DNA of 64,000 nucleotides from Lichina pygmaea (Eukaryota > Ascomycota > Lichinomycetes > Lichinales > Lichinaceae), in assembly GCA_963422465.1 (NCBI GenBank), contig OY730173.1, forward strand, positions 2,356,001 through 2,420,000. The letters are read 5' to 3'. The notes under the pieces were generated by a model. That model was not told the DNA's origin. It made no database searches and saw nothing but the letters and a program-made list of their open reading frames with translations. The number at the start of each line of letters is the position of its first letter. Positions within the stretch are counted from its first letter, which is position 1. Below are positions 2,087 to 11,400 of this stretch, piece after piece. Made by a program: the position numbers and the translations under genes.

Positions 2087-2339
2087 TGTTGCGGTCCGTA
2101 CCGTACCGTCCTATCCGAGTATAGGATTAGGGCGAGAGGCGGAAGGCGGGTTGGTTCTCGCAGGAGAGGAGTGTCAAGGAGCGCGAAGGGGTTTGGTGGA
2201 ACGTGGTGGTGGTGACACCTGATCAATGGCTTCGTACAAAGGATTGTATTGAAGTAGATCTAGTTGTCTGGATCACAACATGAGTTGAAGACGATCGTTC
2301 CATAAGGGAACTATCGCCGGACTATATAGTGCTGGCCTG

Positions 2340-2650: not shown

Positions 2651-2657
2651 TATAAAT
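2651..2657 (+). promoter_or_regulatory. TATA box facing the antisense ORF
   Basis: TATAAAT inside the 3' LTR, oriented away from gag-pol and 73 bp before the ATG at 2,730. A C/T-rich stretch at 2,686-2,705 is a plausible start region. The only other ATG before 2,730 opens a three-codon frame at 2,716-2,727. Promoter activity is inferred. Confidence 0.45.
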
Positions 2658-2729
2658 GAGTGGCTCCCATCCCTGGGTCGTAACACTACCCTCCTCTCCT
2701 TCATTCATCGTCCCGATGAATTCTTGAGT

Positions 2730-3230
2730 ATGTCTGCAAAATCACGTGCCTCTGCTTACCGAAACCAACTGGCAGCCCAGATCCGTGATCATAACTTCGT
2801 GTCGCTTGCTCTGTGTGACTTCTGTGTTTTGAACCACAAGCCCTGCTTCCAAATGTCTGACGACAACGATAAGTTGAAGTGCGCTGAGTGCACTCGTCGG
2901 GGAAAGTCCTGTGTGTCACTTTCTTGGGAGTCGCTGAACATGACTTGGGATAACCTTCGCGAGGATTTGGCTGTCGATGAGGCCAAGCGGGATGCTCTTG
3001 TCGAGCAGCTTGCCGAGCTGCAGGCTCGTGTGTCCCGAAAGCGAAAGGTTCTTGAGGGTGCTGAGGGTCGAGCAAAGAAGAAGCTCCAGTGCCTTGTTGC
3101 TGAAATGGAGGTGGATAGTGAAGACTTGTCGGTGACAGTCATTGATGCGTCCGCGCTGCAGGCTGAGCTGTTCAGTCCTGCTCCTGCCGGAACTGCTGCA
3201 GGAGGAGCTGGCAGTTCGCGAGGTTCCTGA
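2730..3230 (+). CDS. Antisense Zn2Cys6 protein of Gypsy-1
   Basis: A 166-codon ORF on the strand opposite to gag-pol, starting 45 bp inside the 3' LTR border and overlapping the end of the integrase frame tail to tail by 59 bp. Residues 29-61 hold six cysteines with spacing C-x2-C-x6-C-x11-C-x2-C-x6-C, within the consensus of the fungal GAL4-type binuclear zinc cluster (PF00172). The first loop is basic (NHKP) and the second reads TRRGKS. Residues about 75-130 are a charged helical region rich in E, A, K and L, and the tail is Ala/Gly/Ser-rich. It appears intact. By family knowledge such clusters bind DNA in the nucleus. That it regulates its own element is inference. I know of no named gene for it. 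Confidence 0.72.
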   Translation: MSAKSRASAYRNQLAAQIRDHNFVSLALCDFCVLNHKPCFQMSDDNDKLKCAECTRRGKSCVSLSWESLNMTWDNLREDLAVDEAKRDALVEQLAELQARVSRKRKVLEGAEGRAKKKLQCLVAEMEVDSEDLSVTVIDASALQAELFSPAPAGTAAGGAGSSRGS

Positions 3231-4533
3231 GTGGCTCCCAGGTATTTTCCGAGTCTGGGTAGTCTTTCCACTTGACAAGGTATCGCTGACCTTTTCTCTT
3301 CAGGATCTGTTCGGCCTTGAATTCCTGTTCTTCCTCTGGTTGGTAATGAAATGTTTCCTGCAAGGGTGTGCTCTGGTCGGCTAATTTGATCATTGAGATG
3401 TGAAAGTTTGGGTGTACCCGAGCGTCTCTCAGTAGTCGCAGTCTGACGTTGACTGGTCCAGCTTTTTCTTCGACTGAAAATAGTCCGACCTTGACATGGT
3501 CCAGTTTCTTTGTTCTTGGTTTCTTTGTTTTCCAATTTCTTGTGAGGAGGTAGACTTTATCCCCCTTCTTTAGCTGAGGTGCCATTTTCGATTTCTTGTC
3601 CATTTGACATTGCATTCTTTCTGAGGTCTCTTGAAGGTAGTGCCTCATCATCGTGTGCGTTTGTCGTAGGAGCTTGTCGTGTTGGAGTGCTTTCTCCGCG
3701 TTTGGTGAAGCTCTGCTTGGCATCCTGATGTTCGCATGTTGTCCAAAATTGGCAAAAAATGGCGATTCCTTTGTTGAGTCTGATCTGTGCTGGTTGATTG
3801 CCAGCTGTGCCACCGGTAATAACTGTGCCCAATTGCTGTGGGTCTTGTTGATGTAATGCTGTAAGTAAGTCTCCAGGACTTGGTTCGCTCGCTCCGTCTG
3901 GCCGTCAGTTCGTGGATGATAGGCTGTAGACATTTTGGGTTTTGTTCCCATGGCTGCACTGATTGTCTTCCAGTAGTTGGATGTGAAGAGTTTATCTCTG
4001 TCTGTAATGATCGTGATCAGAACTCTGTGGTCTCTGACCAATCTGTCCAGTAAGAGGTGTCCCAACTGTTCTGCTGTGTGGGTTTCCTTGAATGGTACCG
4101 CTATTAGATATTTTGTGAATCTGTCCACTATCACCATAATCAAGTCGTAGGTGATTCCTGTGACTGGGTCTTTGGACTTGGGTAGCTTTGTGATGAAGTC
4201 TATTGACACGTCTTCCCACAGGCCTTTCGGTATTGTGTTCGGGTGTCCTTCTCTGTATGGCTTATGTCTTCCATGTTTGTTTTTCTGGCATAGTAGACAC
4301 TTGCTGATGTAGTTTGTGACATGTTGTCGGAGGTTAATGACATTGTTCCCTGCCTGTTGGATAAGGTCTGTGGTCTTGGAGATTCCTGGGTGACCGTGTG
4401 CTGGGTTATCATAGTAGTTCCTTATTAGTTCTTCAGTGTCTTCTGCCGTGAGCTTGTTGATCTGTGGTTGAGGCACCAGGTTTCCTTGCTGGTCCTGCTG
4501 TAAGATCATTCCTTGGCGTTCATCATCTTCCAT
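3172..4533 (-). pseudogene. Gypsy-1 integrase and chromodomain region
   Basis: The longest open piece of the decayed polyprotein. It shows an HHCC-type zinc-binding N-terminus (HGHPGISKT, CLLCQKNKHGRHKP), an integrase core (VDRFTKYLIAVP, TAYHPRTDGQTERANQ) and, at the end, a chromodomain (AEQILKRKGQRYLVKWKDYP, then NTWEPLRNL). Chromodomains at this position define chromoviruses and are known to steer integration toward marked chromatin. The 3' end overlaps the antisense ORF. Confidence 0.88.
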
Positions 4534-4545
4534 GTGGTCTTTTCG

Positions 4546-5847
4546 TCAGCTTAGTGTGTCTGCTCTCCTATTGTCTTGTCCAGGGGTGTACAAGATCTTG
4601 AACTTGTGTTGCCCTAGGAGTTCAGCCCATCTGACTTGCTGTCTGTTCAGCTTCTTGGTTGTCGTGAACGTTGTCAGATTCTTGTGGTCTGTGAGAATAG
4701 TGAGTTCGGAACTGCTTTCCGCGTACACTCTCCAGTGTTCGAGTGCGTTGACGACTGCCAGTAGCTCTTTATCATGGATATCATAGTTTCGTTCCGCTTG
4801 TGTCATTTTTCGTGAGTAGTAGGCAACTGGGTGCCACTTGCTGTCTGCCTGTTGGCATAGACATGCTCCCACTGCCTGATCTGAAGTGTCCGTCTTGATT
4901 CGTGTCGGTTGGCCTGTCTTGAAGTTGAGGAGAACTGGTTCCTTGGCGCAAGCGTTCTTGAGCTGTTGGAATGCTTTTTGTTGTCTCTCCGTCCACCGGT
5001 ACTCCACATCCTTCTTCGTGAGTTCTGTCAGTGGTGTTGCCATCTGTGAGTAGTTCTTGATGAACTGTCGGTTGAAGTTGGTAAATCCTAGGAAGGCTTG
5101 TACTTCCTTAACTGATGTCGGTGTTGGCTATTGCTGAATCGCTTTGATTTTCTCAGGGTCAATCTTGATCCCTTTGATCCCTATGATGTATCTGAGGAAT
5201 TCAACTTCCAGTTTGTTGAACTCGCATTTCTTCGGGTTGAGCTTGAGCCCTGCCTCTTGTAGGCATCGTAGAACATCCTTCACATGTTTGGTATGTTCTT
5301 GTTGCGTGTTCGAGTAGACAAGAATGTCGTCCAGGTAGGCGATAGCTGTTTGGTCCAGGTGTGCTCTGATGACGTTGTTGATCAATGCTTGACATGTTGC
5401 TGGTGCGTTTGTGAGTCTGAATGGCATAACCAGATACTCGTAGTGTCTGTATCAGGTTCTGAAGGCTGTCTTCCATTCTTCTCCTTTTTTCATGTGTATC
5501 AGGTTGTATGCTCCTTTCAAGTCCAGCTTGGTAAAGATTGTAGCTTGGCTGATCCTGTCTCGCAATTCGTTCGCATTTGGCAGCGGATATTGATTCTTGA
5601 TGGTAATGTCGTTGAGTTTCCTGTAATCCACACAAAGTCGAAGACTTCTGTCTTTCTTTGGTGCAAATAGTATTGGGTATCCTGCTGGCGATTGAGATTC
5701 TTGAATGAAACCCTTTTTCAGGTTTTCCTCCAGGTACTCGCGAAGTACTTGGAGCTCTTTCTCTGATAACTGGTAAATTGGTCCAAATCCTGGCTCTGTC
5801 CCTGGTTGCAACTTGATCTCATGATCCCAAGGTTGGTGCTTAGGCAA
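4546..5847 (-). pseudogene. Gypsy-1 reverse transcriptase and RNase H region
   Basis: Conserved Ty3/Gypsy landmarks in order: [20 protein letters not shown], the polymerase motif YLDDILVYSN, then the RNase H stretch TDTSDQAVGACLCQ with SRKMTQAERNYDIHDKELLA. Several open pieces, broken. Confidence 0.88.
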
Positions 5848-5892
5848 CGCTGCTGTTGTTGTCTCTTCCTGAAAGAGGTTATCATACCCAGG

Positions 5893-6552
5893 TCAGTACT
5901 CTTCAGGGATCTCCAGAGGGTTAACAACTTCCTCTCTCTTCATCTCTGACTGTTTGGCCACCTGGTTCCGGGGTGTGCCTGTCAAGGCAGACCTCTTCTC
6001 TTGAGAGTTGTCCTTTCTGTCAGTGAGGTTCCACTGAGGACTCCTTCCCTCATCTGTCCACGCCTTCTGCGGCTGGTAACAGGTCCGAGCTGTGTTGTTA
6101 GTGCAGTTCCTAAACATGAGTACTCCTGTCTTCCAGTTAACAACTGGGTTGTGCTTCTTTAGCCAAGGCATCCCCAAATAGATATCCTGAGTGGCCAACT
6201 CGACAATATCAAGGTGGATCCTTTCAGCATGGTGTCCGGTAACTATTTCTATTGGCTGCGTCTCATGGCAGACTAGCTCTGTCTGTCCATTTGCCATCGC
6301 GAGCTGATAGGGCTGCTGCTTGCATCTCCTTCCAGTGCTGAGGGTGTTGTAAAGTTGTCTTGAAATGTAGTTTCCACTGGCTCCAGAGTCAACAAGTGCG
6401 TATGTCTGTACTGGCGTGTTGGCGTGTAGTGACACAGGCAATCGCAGGTGCTTTGTGTTGCTAGGGGTCATGTTGTTGAGCTCCCGATGTCGCCCCTTGA
6501 CAAGGGAGTTCAGTCTTTTCCTGATTGAAGTGTCTTTCCACTGACTGGGCAA
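5893..6552 (-). pseudogene. Gypsy-1 protease region
   Basis: Retropepsin-like aspartic protease segment with ALVDSGASGNYIS followed about 75 residues later by LGMPWLKKHNPVVNW, the usual pairing in Ty3/Gypsy. It lies between gag and reverse transcriptase in a decayed reading frame. Confidence 0.82.
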
Positions 6553-7181
6553 TAGGTCCAGCCATTCCCATCAGTCCTGAGGAATCTGTTCATGAATTTG
6601 TCTTGCTGATGCTTGTCACATCCAGGCTTGAGGCAGTACTGCCAATTGTTGACGTAGCAGTTGTGGTTGTTGCCTTGCTGTAGGAACATGAGGTGTTCGT
6701 GCCAATCATGTGTGTGCCCGGGGAATGCAGTGTGTTGGTGTTTGTCCCAAAGGTGGATCTCACACGCATCCTTCTCGCAATTGACCCAATGTTTGTGGCA
6801 GGTGGCGTGGTAGGGTGAATGTCCTCTGTACCTTTGTAGTTGTTCGTGGTAGGTGCAGTAGTGCTTTGTGCAAAACCTCCACTGTAGTTCGCCGTGCCGT
6901 AGATTTCATGGGTCCATGCTGTAAGTATAGCTTCCTTGTGGTATTTCTTCTTTGATAGACACAGGTTCGTCTCAGTCCCCATCAGAGGTGGTTAAGGGCT
7001 CCTGTCCCTTGTCCTGACCTGTCTGTTCTGGTAGGTCCTTGCCTCCTGATGTTGCCAGTTGGTGGGCTGCTTCCAATGTCTGATTGTAGTTGTCCTATTG
7101 TTCAAGGGATAGCTGAGCCTCTCCTGGTGGGTCCTCCGGCTTGATGACATTCCAGTCTCCGTCAAGCGTATTAAGTTGCTG

Positions 7182-7904
7182 TCAGTGCACCTTGTTCTTT
7201 GAACGACAGTCTTTCGCCATGTGGCCTAGCTTGCCACAGGCATAGCACTTCAGTGCTTTCCTCTTTTTGTTGTTCCTTCCCTTCATGAACCTTCCCTTGT
7301 GGTGGACTGCATCCAGTTCCATGGGTGCATAGCCATATGGATCATGTGGCGGTGCCTTGTTAGGCAGCTTGTAGTGGTTGCTCACATGCCATGTGGGGTG
7401 GCTGTATCCTCTGTCGTGGTGTTTCTCCATCACTCGCTTGAATAGTTTGTCATCAATGTCGATTGCTTGTACAATGAGTTCGTCCAGTGTGTCGACTGCT
7501 TGTCCATCGAAGGTGATTTCATCCTTCATGTTTTCCTTGAGTCCACGTTGGTACATGACCATCAGGGTGTTGTCGTCCCAGTCAGTCAGTACTGAGTATT
7601 GTTTGAACTGCGTGGTGTACTCTGCGGCTGAGTGTTGTTGTTTGATGTGCTGGATCATTTGTATAGCCACTTTATCTTTGTTAGATGGTCCAAGGATCCT
7701 TTTGATCTCATCCTTGAATCGTGTCCATTTCATCATCCATTCTATTGTGCTGTCGTGGTCTCTGTTCCCTGAGAGATGTTTGTTGATGTAGGGTTTGATC
7801 CATTGATAAGCATTGCCTCTCATGTAAGTGGTTGCAAAGAGGGGCCACTTTTCCTTAGGCAGCTTCGTCTCTGGTTGGAATTGAAAGTAGACTTGGAGTT
7901 GCAT
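7182..7904 (-). pseudogene. Gypsy-1 gag with zinc knuckle
   Basis: Capsid-like segment (KEKWPLFATTYMRGNAYQW, FKDEIKRILG, AAEYTTQFKQYSVLTDWDD) followed by a basic stretch and the CCHC knuckle CYACGKLGHMAKDC. It is the first gene after the 5' LTR (8,028). The upstream 120 bp may include the true beginning of gag. Confidence 0.85.
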
Positions 7905-8027
7905 GAGCCAGTCGTCGACCTTGTTTCTTTCACTGTAGAACAGGTCTGGCTTGGCGACGCTAATCTTTCCATCTGGGAAGTTGGGGTTGGTTGCTCCTGA
8001 GGTACTTATCCTTGAGGGTCTTCAAAG

Positions 8028-8626
8028 TGTTGTGGTCTGTACTGTACCATCCTATCTGAGTATAGGATTAGGGCGAGAGGTGGAAGGCAGGTTGGTTCTT
8101 GCAGGAGAGGAGTGTCAAGGAGTGCGAAGGGGTTTGGTGGAATGTGGTGGTGGTGACACCTGATCAATAGCTTTGTACAAAGGATTGTATTAAAGTAGAT
8201 CTAGTTGTCTGGATCACAACATGAGTTGAAGACGATTGTTCTATAAGGGAACTATCGCCAGACTATATAGTGCTGGCCTGTCAAGACAATCAAGATTGTC
8301 TTGACAGTCTCGACGTCAAGATGGGTGAGATTGTCTTGACAGTCCCACTATGTTATGCACCCTGCGTCAAGACTGGTGAGATTGTCTCAATGCTTCATGC
8401 ATCATGCGTCAAGACTGGTGAGATTGTCTTGATGCTTCATGCATCATGCGTCAAGACTGGTGAGATTGTCTTGATACTTCATGCATCATGCGTTGAGACT
8501 CCCATGTGTGTCTCGACAGTCACGTGACCCCTTGTTGGTTGGTCACTTGACTTCCATGGTGTCCTCTTGCCTGGCCCGCGGCCTGGTTGCCTATAAATAA
8601 GTGGCTCCCATCCCTGGGTCGTAACA
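8028..8626 (-). repeat. Gypsy-1 5' LTR
   Basis: Same length as its partner at 2,087 but carrying nearly all of the roughly 35 transitions separating them, most at former CpG sites and a few at CpA. The partner has the unmutated base at essentially every difference I compared. Confidence 0.92.
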
Positions 8627-8631
8627 CAACC

Positions 8632-9510
8632 AAAAAGCCCTTGTCTATCAGTGTGTTCACTGCCCGCACATCAGCAAGCTCCAAGATCAGGGAGGACCTG
8701 GTCTTAGAATGTGCTGACTTTGGCCAGTGGGCTCCAACCAGCTTCAGCTCAGAGTGCAGGACTCTATTCTCCTTCTGCAGTGTTTTGACAATGTTGCCCT
8801 GGTTGCTGGTGTCCACATCCTTTGTACAAACTCTGTGGACTAGCACCTGGTAACATCACTGGACTATCTGTGCTGATGGTGCAAAGCAGGTCAACCAGCC
8901 ACTGTCCTCTTCCAGCCTCTGGCACCCAGCCTCTGTCTCCACCAGAATTGACACATCCCCACTGGGGTGCCAGTACAGCAAGAGCACACAGCTCCCATCT
9001 CCCTCTGTGAAGTGGCCAGTTTGCTCTAGCCACTGCTTGAGTTGCTGGGGGGGGACGACCCAGAAGCCTGAAGTCTCCACTGGGTCTTCCACTCTGGCCA
9101 CAACCTCCCAGAGGTGACATGCCTCCAAACAAGAGGCCTCTCACTTGTGTTGCCTGGCAAGGACTTTGGTGGGCATGGTGTTGGTGTGAGTACACAGGTG
9201 TGGGCCCGGGGCCTCCTGCACTGCCTGTGCATATGTCTTCTTTTGCTGGACTGTTGATTCAATGTTCTTTAGTTGTTGGTCAACATCACCAAGAGCCTTT
9301 ATCGTCATTTGGTGGGTGCCCTCTGAGGCTTCAGTCACCCACACCACCAGGCCACTGATCACTCACTCAACATTGCCAAGGAACTGGTGTACTGCCACCA
9401 AATTGTACAAGGGTTTATCAGGGTTCTTCACAGTTGCATTAAGTCTTAGAGATTCTAATTGTGTCTGTACTAAATCAAGGAAGTCTGCAAAGTCAGGGCA
9501 GTCTCCTTTG
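8632..9510 (-). pseudogene. LINE-1a ORF1, N-terminal part
   Basis: Continuation of the ORF interrupted at 2,086. In order on the minus strand: KKTYAQAVQEA (about 9,240), then a region with GDVSILVETEAG (about 8,950), VLVHRVCTKD (about 8,830) and ADVRAVNTLIDKGFLV ending at the insertion point. Each phrase has a counterpart in the intact LINE-2a ORF1 (TYAQAVQK, GDIIISLETPQA, VLVHRMQTKD, PEQANLLIEKG), which fixes identity and order. The reading frame shifts between about 9,130 and 9,200 and at 8,850. The first codon is not resolved. Confidence 0.65.
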
Positions 9511-9570: not shown

Positions 9571-11400
9571 ATTGATTGATTGATTGAATTCCTACACTAT
9601 TCTAGCGCTAGTGTATCTAGGCTACACTGGGTCAACTATAGAATTAGGCTAGGAAAACTCAACCAAGTAAAAAAACCTCTCCCTGCAGCACCTTGGGCAG
9701 TGCTATCCTCTTGAGTAATCTACAGAACATGGGGGGTGACTGGTTAGTAACCAGTATCTAGCTGCTCCTGGGCCCAGGAGAACTGGGGGAGAACTCCGTG
9801 GTGTAGGATCCACAAGGTGAGGGTGGTGGTGGGCTGTGGGTGTGAGATCATCACCTGGTAGTCAGTAGTAGCAGCCACAGTGTAAAGACTGCGATGTACT
9901 CACTGCAGGCATGGGCACTCCAGAACAACATGCTTTGCAGTCTCCCACTGCACTCCACAGCAACAAGCTGGTGTTGGGAAGCTGGGGACTTGTTGTCTGC
10001 AGAGGAAGGCTGCCAGCCTGATCTTACCTGTGTGCATCTGTGTTAAGATGCTGCTTTGGGTCTTGGATAGGCTAGTGCGAAGCTGGAGAGATGCCTGGTA
10101 CAGCATCCTGTCCAGCTTCCAGTTGTCTCCCCCTCCAGAATCTGGGTCCAGCAGCTGGATTTGTGGTGGGGGCCCACTGTGGAGCTTGTGCCATCTCTCC
10201 CAGCACTATTGCTCCAATAGCAGGCAGGCCTGCCAGACTGTTCATGGGGGGGTGCCTGGGGGTGGGGTGACTGCAGGGTGGCTGTCAGCCCATGGGGGCA
10301 GGCCCAGGGACCTCTTGGTGGACTCAAGTGGCTGCTGGGGCCAGAGGATTGACTTGGCCCAGTGGTGTCACACCTGGCCTGGTGAGATGTAGGTGCAGTG
10401 ACATCAGCCCAGTTGTCAGGCCAGCTGACACTTGAGTTGTTCACAGGCCTCTTGAATCTCTGTCCAGACTCTGGAGACTTCCATCCTGACATGTGCCTGT
10501 AGCTGCAGTTATGCTATATGCACCCAGAGGGGGGGAACAGCAGTCTTGCTCTCAAGCTGCTTCCAGCTGGTAGCCCTGAAGCTGCCAGTAACTGACTGCA
10601 GGCAGTGTTGTTGTTGCTGCTTGAGGGCATCTCCAATCCAGTGTCAGTGTGCTGGCCTCAGGAGACTGTCCAGTGGGCTCCACACTGTCACTCTGTAGGT
10701 GATGACTGGGTGCACCACAGTGTTGTAGATCAGCCATGCTTTGCCACAGTTGACCTATGCCAAGGCATAGTGCAGAGTCACTATCCCTTGCAGAGTCTCT
10801 GCCACACTTCCCCACAGTTCTGAGATCTTTTGCACTCCACTATGTACACTCACCCCTAGGTCCTGCTTCGGAGTGCTGGGTTGCCAGTCTGGAGCCCACA
10901 CTCCAACTGCAGTTTGCTTCTTGAGCCTGTTATTTGCAGTCTGAGCCTGCACTCTGTACAGACTGGCATGCACTTCTGTTCTCTCAGGCTATATAGACAG
11001 TCTAAAGAATCAAATAAAAAAAATAAAATAAAAATAGACAGTCTTGTAGTAGGCCCAGACCCTACTGCCATCACTGCCATTATATGCCACACCCCACAGC
11101 TCTCACTGTTTCATGTTACCTCTGTAGATCTCTTGTACAGAGGCTGACCATGCCTCACAGACTCTACAGACCCTGCAGGCTATGCCAGCACCTGCAGGAC
11201 CACCTTTCCAGTCCACTAACCAAGTAGGGAGAAGTCTGTCTGCCTGTTGTCACCTGTGGAGCCCCAGTTGTATGTGGTGGCCCACTGGAGATCCAGTGCT
11301 CTGGCCCCAGTCTGTAGGTGGCCTGAAGAGAATCTGTGGCAAGACCTTAGGCAAAACCATCAAGCCAGCACTTTGACTATCACACAGCCCTTAGGTACTG
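9571..11400 (-). mobile_element. LINE-1b ORF2 C-terminal remnant
   Basis: Minus-strand 3' part of a Tad1-like LINE. The (TTGA)n tail is at 9,571-9,587, followed by GAATTCCTACACTATTC. About 9,900-10,110 encodes the C-terminal zinc-knuckle motif CCCGVQWETAKHVVLECP that follows RNase H in this clade. Frames at 10,740-10,800 carry VHPVITYRVTVWSPLDSLL from the end of the reverse transcriptase (counterpart at 51,100). The part beyond 10,830 matches 20,040-20,470. It is heavily mutated, 5'-truncated and non-functional. The right boundary is approximate. Confidence 0.65.

Follow-up and report, generated by a model that had tools for sequence, protein, structure and literature searches.

The question raised by this locus is what a retrotransposon could do with a small gene on the strand opposite to its own gag-pol region. 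The locus lies in a stretch of 64,000 nucleotides from the ascomycete Lichina pygmaea (assembly GCA_963422465.1, contig OY730173.1, positions 2,356,001 to 2,420,000), which is called the window in the following. On its minus strand the window contains a Ty3/Gypsy element with two long terminal repeats (LTRs) of 599 bp each at 2087-2685 (3' LTR) and 8028-8626 (5' LTR). Beside the 3' LTR an antisense open reading frame (aORF) of 166 amino acids is located at 2730-3230 on the plus strand. Here, we show that this aORF is a real conserved gene and not a chance frame, and that it is inherited next to an array of inverted repeats in the neighbouring U3 region. From its sequence and predicted structure we discuss whether its product might act on this array.

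A conserved gene opposite to gag-pol

The aORF has no internal stop and runs opposite to gag-pol between the pol stop (3172) and the 3' LTR, with its 3' end overlapping pol by 59 nt. It is preceded by a leader of 44 nt (2686-2729, plus strand), the other strand of which contains, by inspection, a purine-rich tract adjoining the LTR. A preliminary description, made from the letters of the window alone, had noticed the 166-codon frame opposite to gag-pol near the 3' LTR together with its six cysteines, spaced C-x2-C-x6-C-x11-C-x2-C-x6-C, and both observations are correct. Three subfamilies of the element are found in the genome, namely A (including the window copy), B and C. Compared with A the amino acid identity of the aORF is about 72% in the B copies L055, L056 and L065, 67% in L066 (also B) and 74% in L057 (C).

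A genome search with the aORF gave 515 candidates. The 150 copies scored among them are 85-96% identical to the window copy and 26 are stop-free in the matched stretch. The expectation that the frame is present in other family members holds as well: in a search with pol (93 copies scored out of 1190 candidates) the aORF adjoins pol in all 93 scored copies. In 87 of them its edge is at the expected place by coordinates, and in the DNA of the other six (over 301 bases each) the aORF is present in every case, five being of B type and one being an A copy with an internal deletion. Of the 30 top-ranked A copies, 29 have an LTR of the same layout upstream of the aORF. The thirtieth copy (L004) has an uninterrupted A-type aORF with an unrelated LTR-like sequence directly in the leader (upstream of 1501), and its pol is only 89% identical. 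Two further rearranged copies concern subfamily C: in L057 (around 946-1515) the LTR upstream of a C-type aORF is inverted right at the LTR boundary, and in L064 a C-type aORF, adjoining a reversed LTR, is truncated at residue 29.

Homologues are also found in databases. As P0062 and P0068 run, compared by eye, into an apparent antisense of the chromodomain end, the same arrangement of pol and aORF is suggested for other database records. P0058 originates from a metagenome-assembled genome of Watsoniomyces obsoletus. No aORF relative was found among the viral contigs of IMG/VR, and the name BRTN, which is known from a fungal element discussed below, is absent among the matches listed in three large protein searches (for one of them, the best 120 of 168).

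Selection was estimated from the 147 codons that do not overlap pol. The ratio of nonsynonymous to synonymous substitution rates (dN/dS) is 0.08-0.14 between A and B (dS is near saturation in this comparison and the ratios are approximate), 0.08-0.11 between A and C, 0.19-0.29 between B and C and 0.14-0.18 between A and the A2 copy L063. The overall range between the subfamilies, 0.08-0.29, reveals the purifying selection on which the preliminary description had made its case depend. Three B copies, with only 5-7 differences among themselves, give 0.64-1.93, as expected for decay after insertion.

A comparison of all reading frames in an A-B pair yields a dN/dS of 0.09 for the aORF frame and 0.19-2.2 for the other five. 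The low rival among these is the sense frame sharing third positions with the aORF, and between A and A2 it is equally low (0.16 versus 0.18 for the aORF). The aORF frame is open in seven of the eight compared copies (the only stop occurs in A2) and no other frame is so; every sense-strand frame has stops in all eight copies, with 2-5 per copy in the frame that shares third positions. As an alternative origin of the constraint, sense-strand reading frames (e.g., 2789-3556, minus strand) were examined, with dN/dS values of 0.16-0.20 for frame -2 in three pairs. They are disfavoured, and the antisense frame is preferred, because the B and C copies have 3-5 stops in frame -2.

These data also bear on the idea that the antisense transcript acts as RNA (as double-stranded RNA or by antisense control) and not via a protein. 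Such a role was raised for plant elements (PMC7264820), but it is already disfavoured here and must be regarded as very improbable: the A-B differences show a strong bias to the third position of aORF codons (33/23/77), the dN/dS value of the frame is low and the frame is kept open across the subfamilies.

The U3 site array and the 3' cassette

Within U3 of the 3' LTR a candidate operator array is located at 2341-2574. It comprises seven CGAG-N14-CTCG inverted repeats (two of them overlapping) with five different sequences, which are partly included in a 42-bp tandem repeat at 2414-2559. None of 500 dinucleotide shuffles reaches seven, neither at N14 nor at any other spacing up to 40. When CpG-decayed forms (TGAG, CAAG, CTCA, CTTG) are allowed, i.e., when relaxed sites are counted, LTRs of the family contain 4-9 such sites. 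In the C LTR there are five sites by the strict and six by the relaxed count. Strict sites are absent from the B LTR, but it has eight relaxed ones of the uniform type YGAG-N14-CTCR, a number again reached in none of 500 shuffles. In the 5' LTR of the window element all sites are CpG-decayed (0 strict, 7 relaxed). Other LTRs contain four (L058, L066), five (L059, L063), six (L062), eight (L065 and the C-like L064) or nine (L061) sites, and L004 has none.

An extra YGAG within most sites causes a secondary peak at N5. Over 30 A copies the spacings N14 and N5 have counts of 198 and 142, followed by spacings with counts of 29, 29 and 25. Genome-wide the pattern GTCGAGAC-N10-GTCTCGA has 316 matches on one strand and 315 on the other, versus 0 for the reversed control. 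The count is a genome total not specific to LTRs, and the copies of a repeat are not independent observations. The background in the rest of the window (8627-64000) is low, with 2 strict and 26 relaxed sites. The period of the tandem repeat is 42 in A and 50 in B and C. Thus, the arrays are tandem repeats in non-coding DNA of the element itself that differ between its subfamilies.

The array is flanked by two opposed TATA boxes. The sense (gag-pol) TATA box at 2323-2328 (minus strand) is present in A, B and C LTRs. The antisense TATA box at 2651-2656 (plus strand) lies about 35 nt before the LTR end and 79 nt before the aORF start; it has counterparts in all three subfamilies, and 29 of 30 A copies have a TATA box no more than 60 nt away from the LTR end. 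From this arrangement it is plausible that the 3' LTR contains an antisense promoter.

Comparison of B with A reveals a sharp mosaic. At the DNA level 2087-2311 is 96-100% identical. Immediately beyond the sense TATA box identity falls to 38-65%, where it stays through U3; it amounts to 60-76% in leader and aORF, rises to 80-90% in the integrase end with the chromodomain (3137-3436) and reaches 90-100% beyond, the B integrase being 91-93% identical to A in amino acids where covered. Despite the divergence of both U3 and aORF the N14 spacing persists in B. Such a sharp mosaic is seen for A versus B, and C is more distant in the integrase too (80%). In retroviral-type reverse transcription both new LTRs receive their U3 from the RNA 3' end and their U5 from the RNA 5' end. 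For this reason U3 and aORF are inherited together and travel as one 3' cassette, and the A/B mosaic could have arisen by one template switch close to the boundary between integrase and chromodomain. The diverged cassette also includes the chromodomain and the integrase end (3172-3436).

Predicted product and proposed role

Zinc clusters of the Zn2Cys6 type follow the spacing rule C-x2-C-x6-C-x(5-12)-C-x2-C-x(6-8)-C, and the aORF protein (P0001, 2-6-11-2-6) conforms to it. The six cysteines are kept in all 13 picked homologues, with 8-11 residues in the middle loop and, in P0111, seven in the first loop; among other homologues P0003 and P0037 have lost one cysteine. In profile-profile comparison (hhalign) with 18 of the genome's 27 PF00172 matches the aORF profile gave a probability of 76 (E 2.2e-5), none of 20 Cys-keeping column shuffles exceeded 15.7, and the similarity to Zn2Cys6 members extends beyond the cysteines. 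The AlphaFold model has a 63-residue helix (66-128) after the cysteines (29-61), in accordance with the helical region already noticed there in the preliminary description. For two AlphaFold models, the second of which was compared with structures by VIA, the PDB matches listed are all Zn2Cys6 domains with sequence-specific DNA binding. A profile search of PDB with the aORF gave no significant match (GAL4 at E 3.4). On the basis of the profile-profile test and the two models the product is probably a DNA-binding protein with a Zn2Cys6-like head on this helix, both fold and helix being supported by prediction. It resembles GAL4, PUT3, PPR1, HAP1 and Leu3 in the six-cysteine spacing, the predicted core fold and the helix behind. 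It differs from GAL4-type proteins by its very small size without further domains, by having almost no linker before the helix and by being encoded by a mobile element.

GAL4 and PUT3 recognize paired half-sites at fixed spacing. We propose that the aORF encodes a dimeric, LTR-binding regulator of its own element, most likely an activator, and this proposal has in our judgement an even chance of being right. The antisense-strand promoter of the 3' LTR (TATA at 2651) would drive the aORF and its product would form a small dimer, the Zn2Cys6-like heads being carried by a long coiled-coil-like helix. Each dimer would bind paired CGAG half-sites 14 bp apart, which are repeated in U3 between both TATA boxes, and could thereby control both LTR promoters, most likely activating them. 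As the gene adjoins U3, regulator and sites would be co-inherited even when elements recombine. More tentative is the extension to a self-contained circuit, in which the dimer would set both LTR promoters and A and B, with their near-identical pol, would be separate regulatory groups able to swap cassettes.

Three points limit the case for the proposed regulator. In the Pfam search the window aORF has no match to PF00172 at E<=1; the profile search that was to secure the Zn(II)2Cys6 domain of the preliminary description thus came out negative, and what stands of this assignment is the spacing and the predicted fold. Secondly, the basic patch usually present between Cys2 and Cys3 of such domains is missing. 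This loop reads VLNHKP in the window copy and VLRGRP or VLRGQP in B and C, compared with e.g. RTRKTR or RRRKIK in the genome's own zinc clusters. Thirdly, the joint divergence of gene and U3 is by itself no proof of binding because both stay linked whatever happens upstream. With regard to this loop, the base after the half-site is mostly A in subfamily A and C in subfamilies B and C, which parallels VLNHKP versus VLRGxP; with three subfamilies only, this is a hint that half-site and loop may vary together.

The missing PF00172 match and the best Pfam match of the window aORF, zf-PHD-like with E 0.0063 and thus below the cut-off, would also suit another small zinc module of similar spacing that is not a binuclear zinc cluster. 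However, the hhalign result with its shuffle control and the exclusively Zn2Cys6 structures listed for both models make this reading quite improbable, and among 18 relatives PF00172 (tied with Kbp-5) is the most frequently matched family, with four of them at E<=10 (best 0.0019).

Basic residues are found elsewhere in the protein, namely in its helix and in the second knuckle (CTRRGKSC). With the non-basic Cys2-Cys3 loop such a distribution fits an accessory factor that binds nucleic acids without any particular preference for U3 and acts in nuclear entry, packaging or integration, with the U3 repeats serving a host transcription factor. For plant antisense reading frames the function is given as unknown (PMC7264820). 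We consider this alternative rather unlikely, as the fold matches listed are all sequence-specific DNA-binding domains and as inverted repeats of fixed spacing, present in A, B and C LTRs, suit a dimer.

If the dimeric regulator binds the array, the direction of its effect has to be considered, and activator, repressor and anti-silencing factor are indistinguishable here. The protein might protect its own LTR from methylation or heterochromatin, like VANC of the Arabidopsis VANDAL elements, or, as a brake, repress sense transcription like HBZ of HTLV-1. VANC targets are frequently tandem repeats varying between related transposable elements (PMC5735166), which is the pattern in U3 described above, and HBZ, an antisense product of the 3' LTR, inhibits Tax-mediated activation of the viral LTR (PMC3185765). 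Because the core site contains CpG and the family suffers from CpG-type decay, which is the main damage between the two window LTRs, anti-silencing is a serious rival. Nevertheless, 3' LTR and aORF are CpG-decayed in several copies (L059, L060, L061) and any protection would not be general. Taken together, an anti-silencing factor or brake in place of an activator seems rather unlikely to us.

Host element, known counterparts and implications

The element that carries the aORF has the organization of a chromovirus, with the order gag, protease, reverse transcriptase, RNase H and integrase, a C-terminal chromodomain, LTRs and a target-site duplication. The latter (CAACC) is read from the sequence at 2082-2086 on the left and 8627-8631 on the right side. 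On the minus strand gag with its CCHC knuckle is found at 7182-8021 (Pfam Retrotrans_gag 4.2e-11, zf-CCHC 3.9e-7). It is followed by the aspartic protease region of pol at 5893-6570 (gag-asp_proteas 3e-8), an interrupted reverse transcriptase region at 5128-5892 (RVT_1 3.4e-9 for 5452-5892, and a reading frame only for 5128-5451), the RNase H region at 4546-5127 (RT_RNaseH 1.2e-35), set off by an in-frame stop from the adjoining piece, and the integrase end with the chromodomain at 3172-4545 (Chromo 5.4e-15, Integrase_H2C2 5.1e-10, SH3_Tf2-1 8.8e-10). The chromodomain itself is placed by arithmetic at 3184-3309, and pol of the window copy is broken by in-frame stops. The two LTRs are 94% identical and differ by 35 substitutions. 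All of these are C>T or G>A changes in the 5' LTR, and 29 affect CpG. This marks the window element as a recent insertion damaged by CpG-type decay that is uneven along its length.

The two flanks of the Gypsy element (1380-2086 and 8627-9200, minus strand) seem to belong to the ORF1 of a LINE-like element, into which it was inserted. The left flank encodes zinc knuckles (Pfam zf-CCHC 1.4e-4), the right flank is without Pfam match at 8523-8855, and at 9903-10205 a zf-RVT match remains below the cut-off (E 8.9e-4). Further to the left, short repeats of ATTG occur in the window near 1340 and 800, as does a run of 29 G (556-584).

Genes in antisense orientation have been described at this place before, namely brtn in Boty of Botrytis and the Retand/TRP28 genes of plants, and what appears to be new here is the zinc-cluster-like identity together with the U3 array. 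The gene brtn of Boty-like retrotransposons in Botrytis cinerea was reportedly treated by Zhao et al. 2011. Boty contains gag, protease, reverse transcriptase, integrase and a chromodomain together with the additional antisense gene brtn (PMC7264820, PMC8365987, PMC4227169, PMC5987419) and is counted among elements with antisense reading frames between pol and 3' LTR (PMC7264820). The preliminary description was aware of no fungal Gypsy element with such a gene; the novelty suggested on this ground is too strong. Compared by description, Boty is likewise a fungal chromodomain element with an antisense gene at the same place, and this position and orientation is found in all 93 scored pol copies. 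It differs in that neither a zinc cluster nor LTR sites are mentioned for brtn in the available text of the citing papers.

The antisense reading frames of plant Retand elements are similar in being conserved between pol and 3' LTR; they contain a TRP28 domain with predicted DNA binding, and a regulatory role has been proposed (PMC11963269). They differ by an unrelated domain (PF04195), by their occurrence in plants in a non-chromovirus and by the size of the region (2,933-6,566 bp), and the available text describes no matching LTR sites (PMC11963269). HBZ of HTLV-1 is, as here proposed, a regulator of its own LTR encoded by an antisense gene of the 3' LTR, but it is a bZIP factor acting via host CREB and p300/CBP (PMC3185765), and we claim no sequence relation. 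VANC of VANDAL is similar in being encoded by a transposable element and in having targets in its own element that are often tandem repeats and vary between related elements (PMC5735166). In contrast with the aORF product, for which binding of the array is proposed, it is a plant protein of another family. VANDAL is moreover a DNA transposon.

By title or abstract, no paper found in the literature describes a zinc cluster for a retrotransposon gene in antisense orientation, subscription journals being thinly covered, and the combination of Zn2Cys6-like identity with a matching U3 array for such a gene was not found in print in the literature searched. The word "antisense" is absent from the main texts of PMC3248453, PMC4427930, PMC11540331, PMC13334192 and PMC8725592.

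For the antisense genes described so far next to the 3' LTR of plant and fungal elements no function is known. Here, the combination of a predicted DNA-binding fold with a candidate operator of fixed spacing allows a direct test of function, for which one protein and a single 22-bp site suffice. If the proposal is true, the element may control its own expression, and a mobile element would possess a regulator of the Zn2Cys6 type. The location at the 3' end would then account for the proximity of such genes to U3, as regulator and target are kept linked via reverse transcription. As the chromodomain is part of the cassette, exchange of the regulator may also entail an exchange of targeting. The element is present in high copy number, and from 5' or solo LTRs its antisense promoters could be directed into the neighbouring host DNA.
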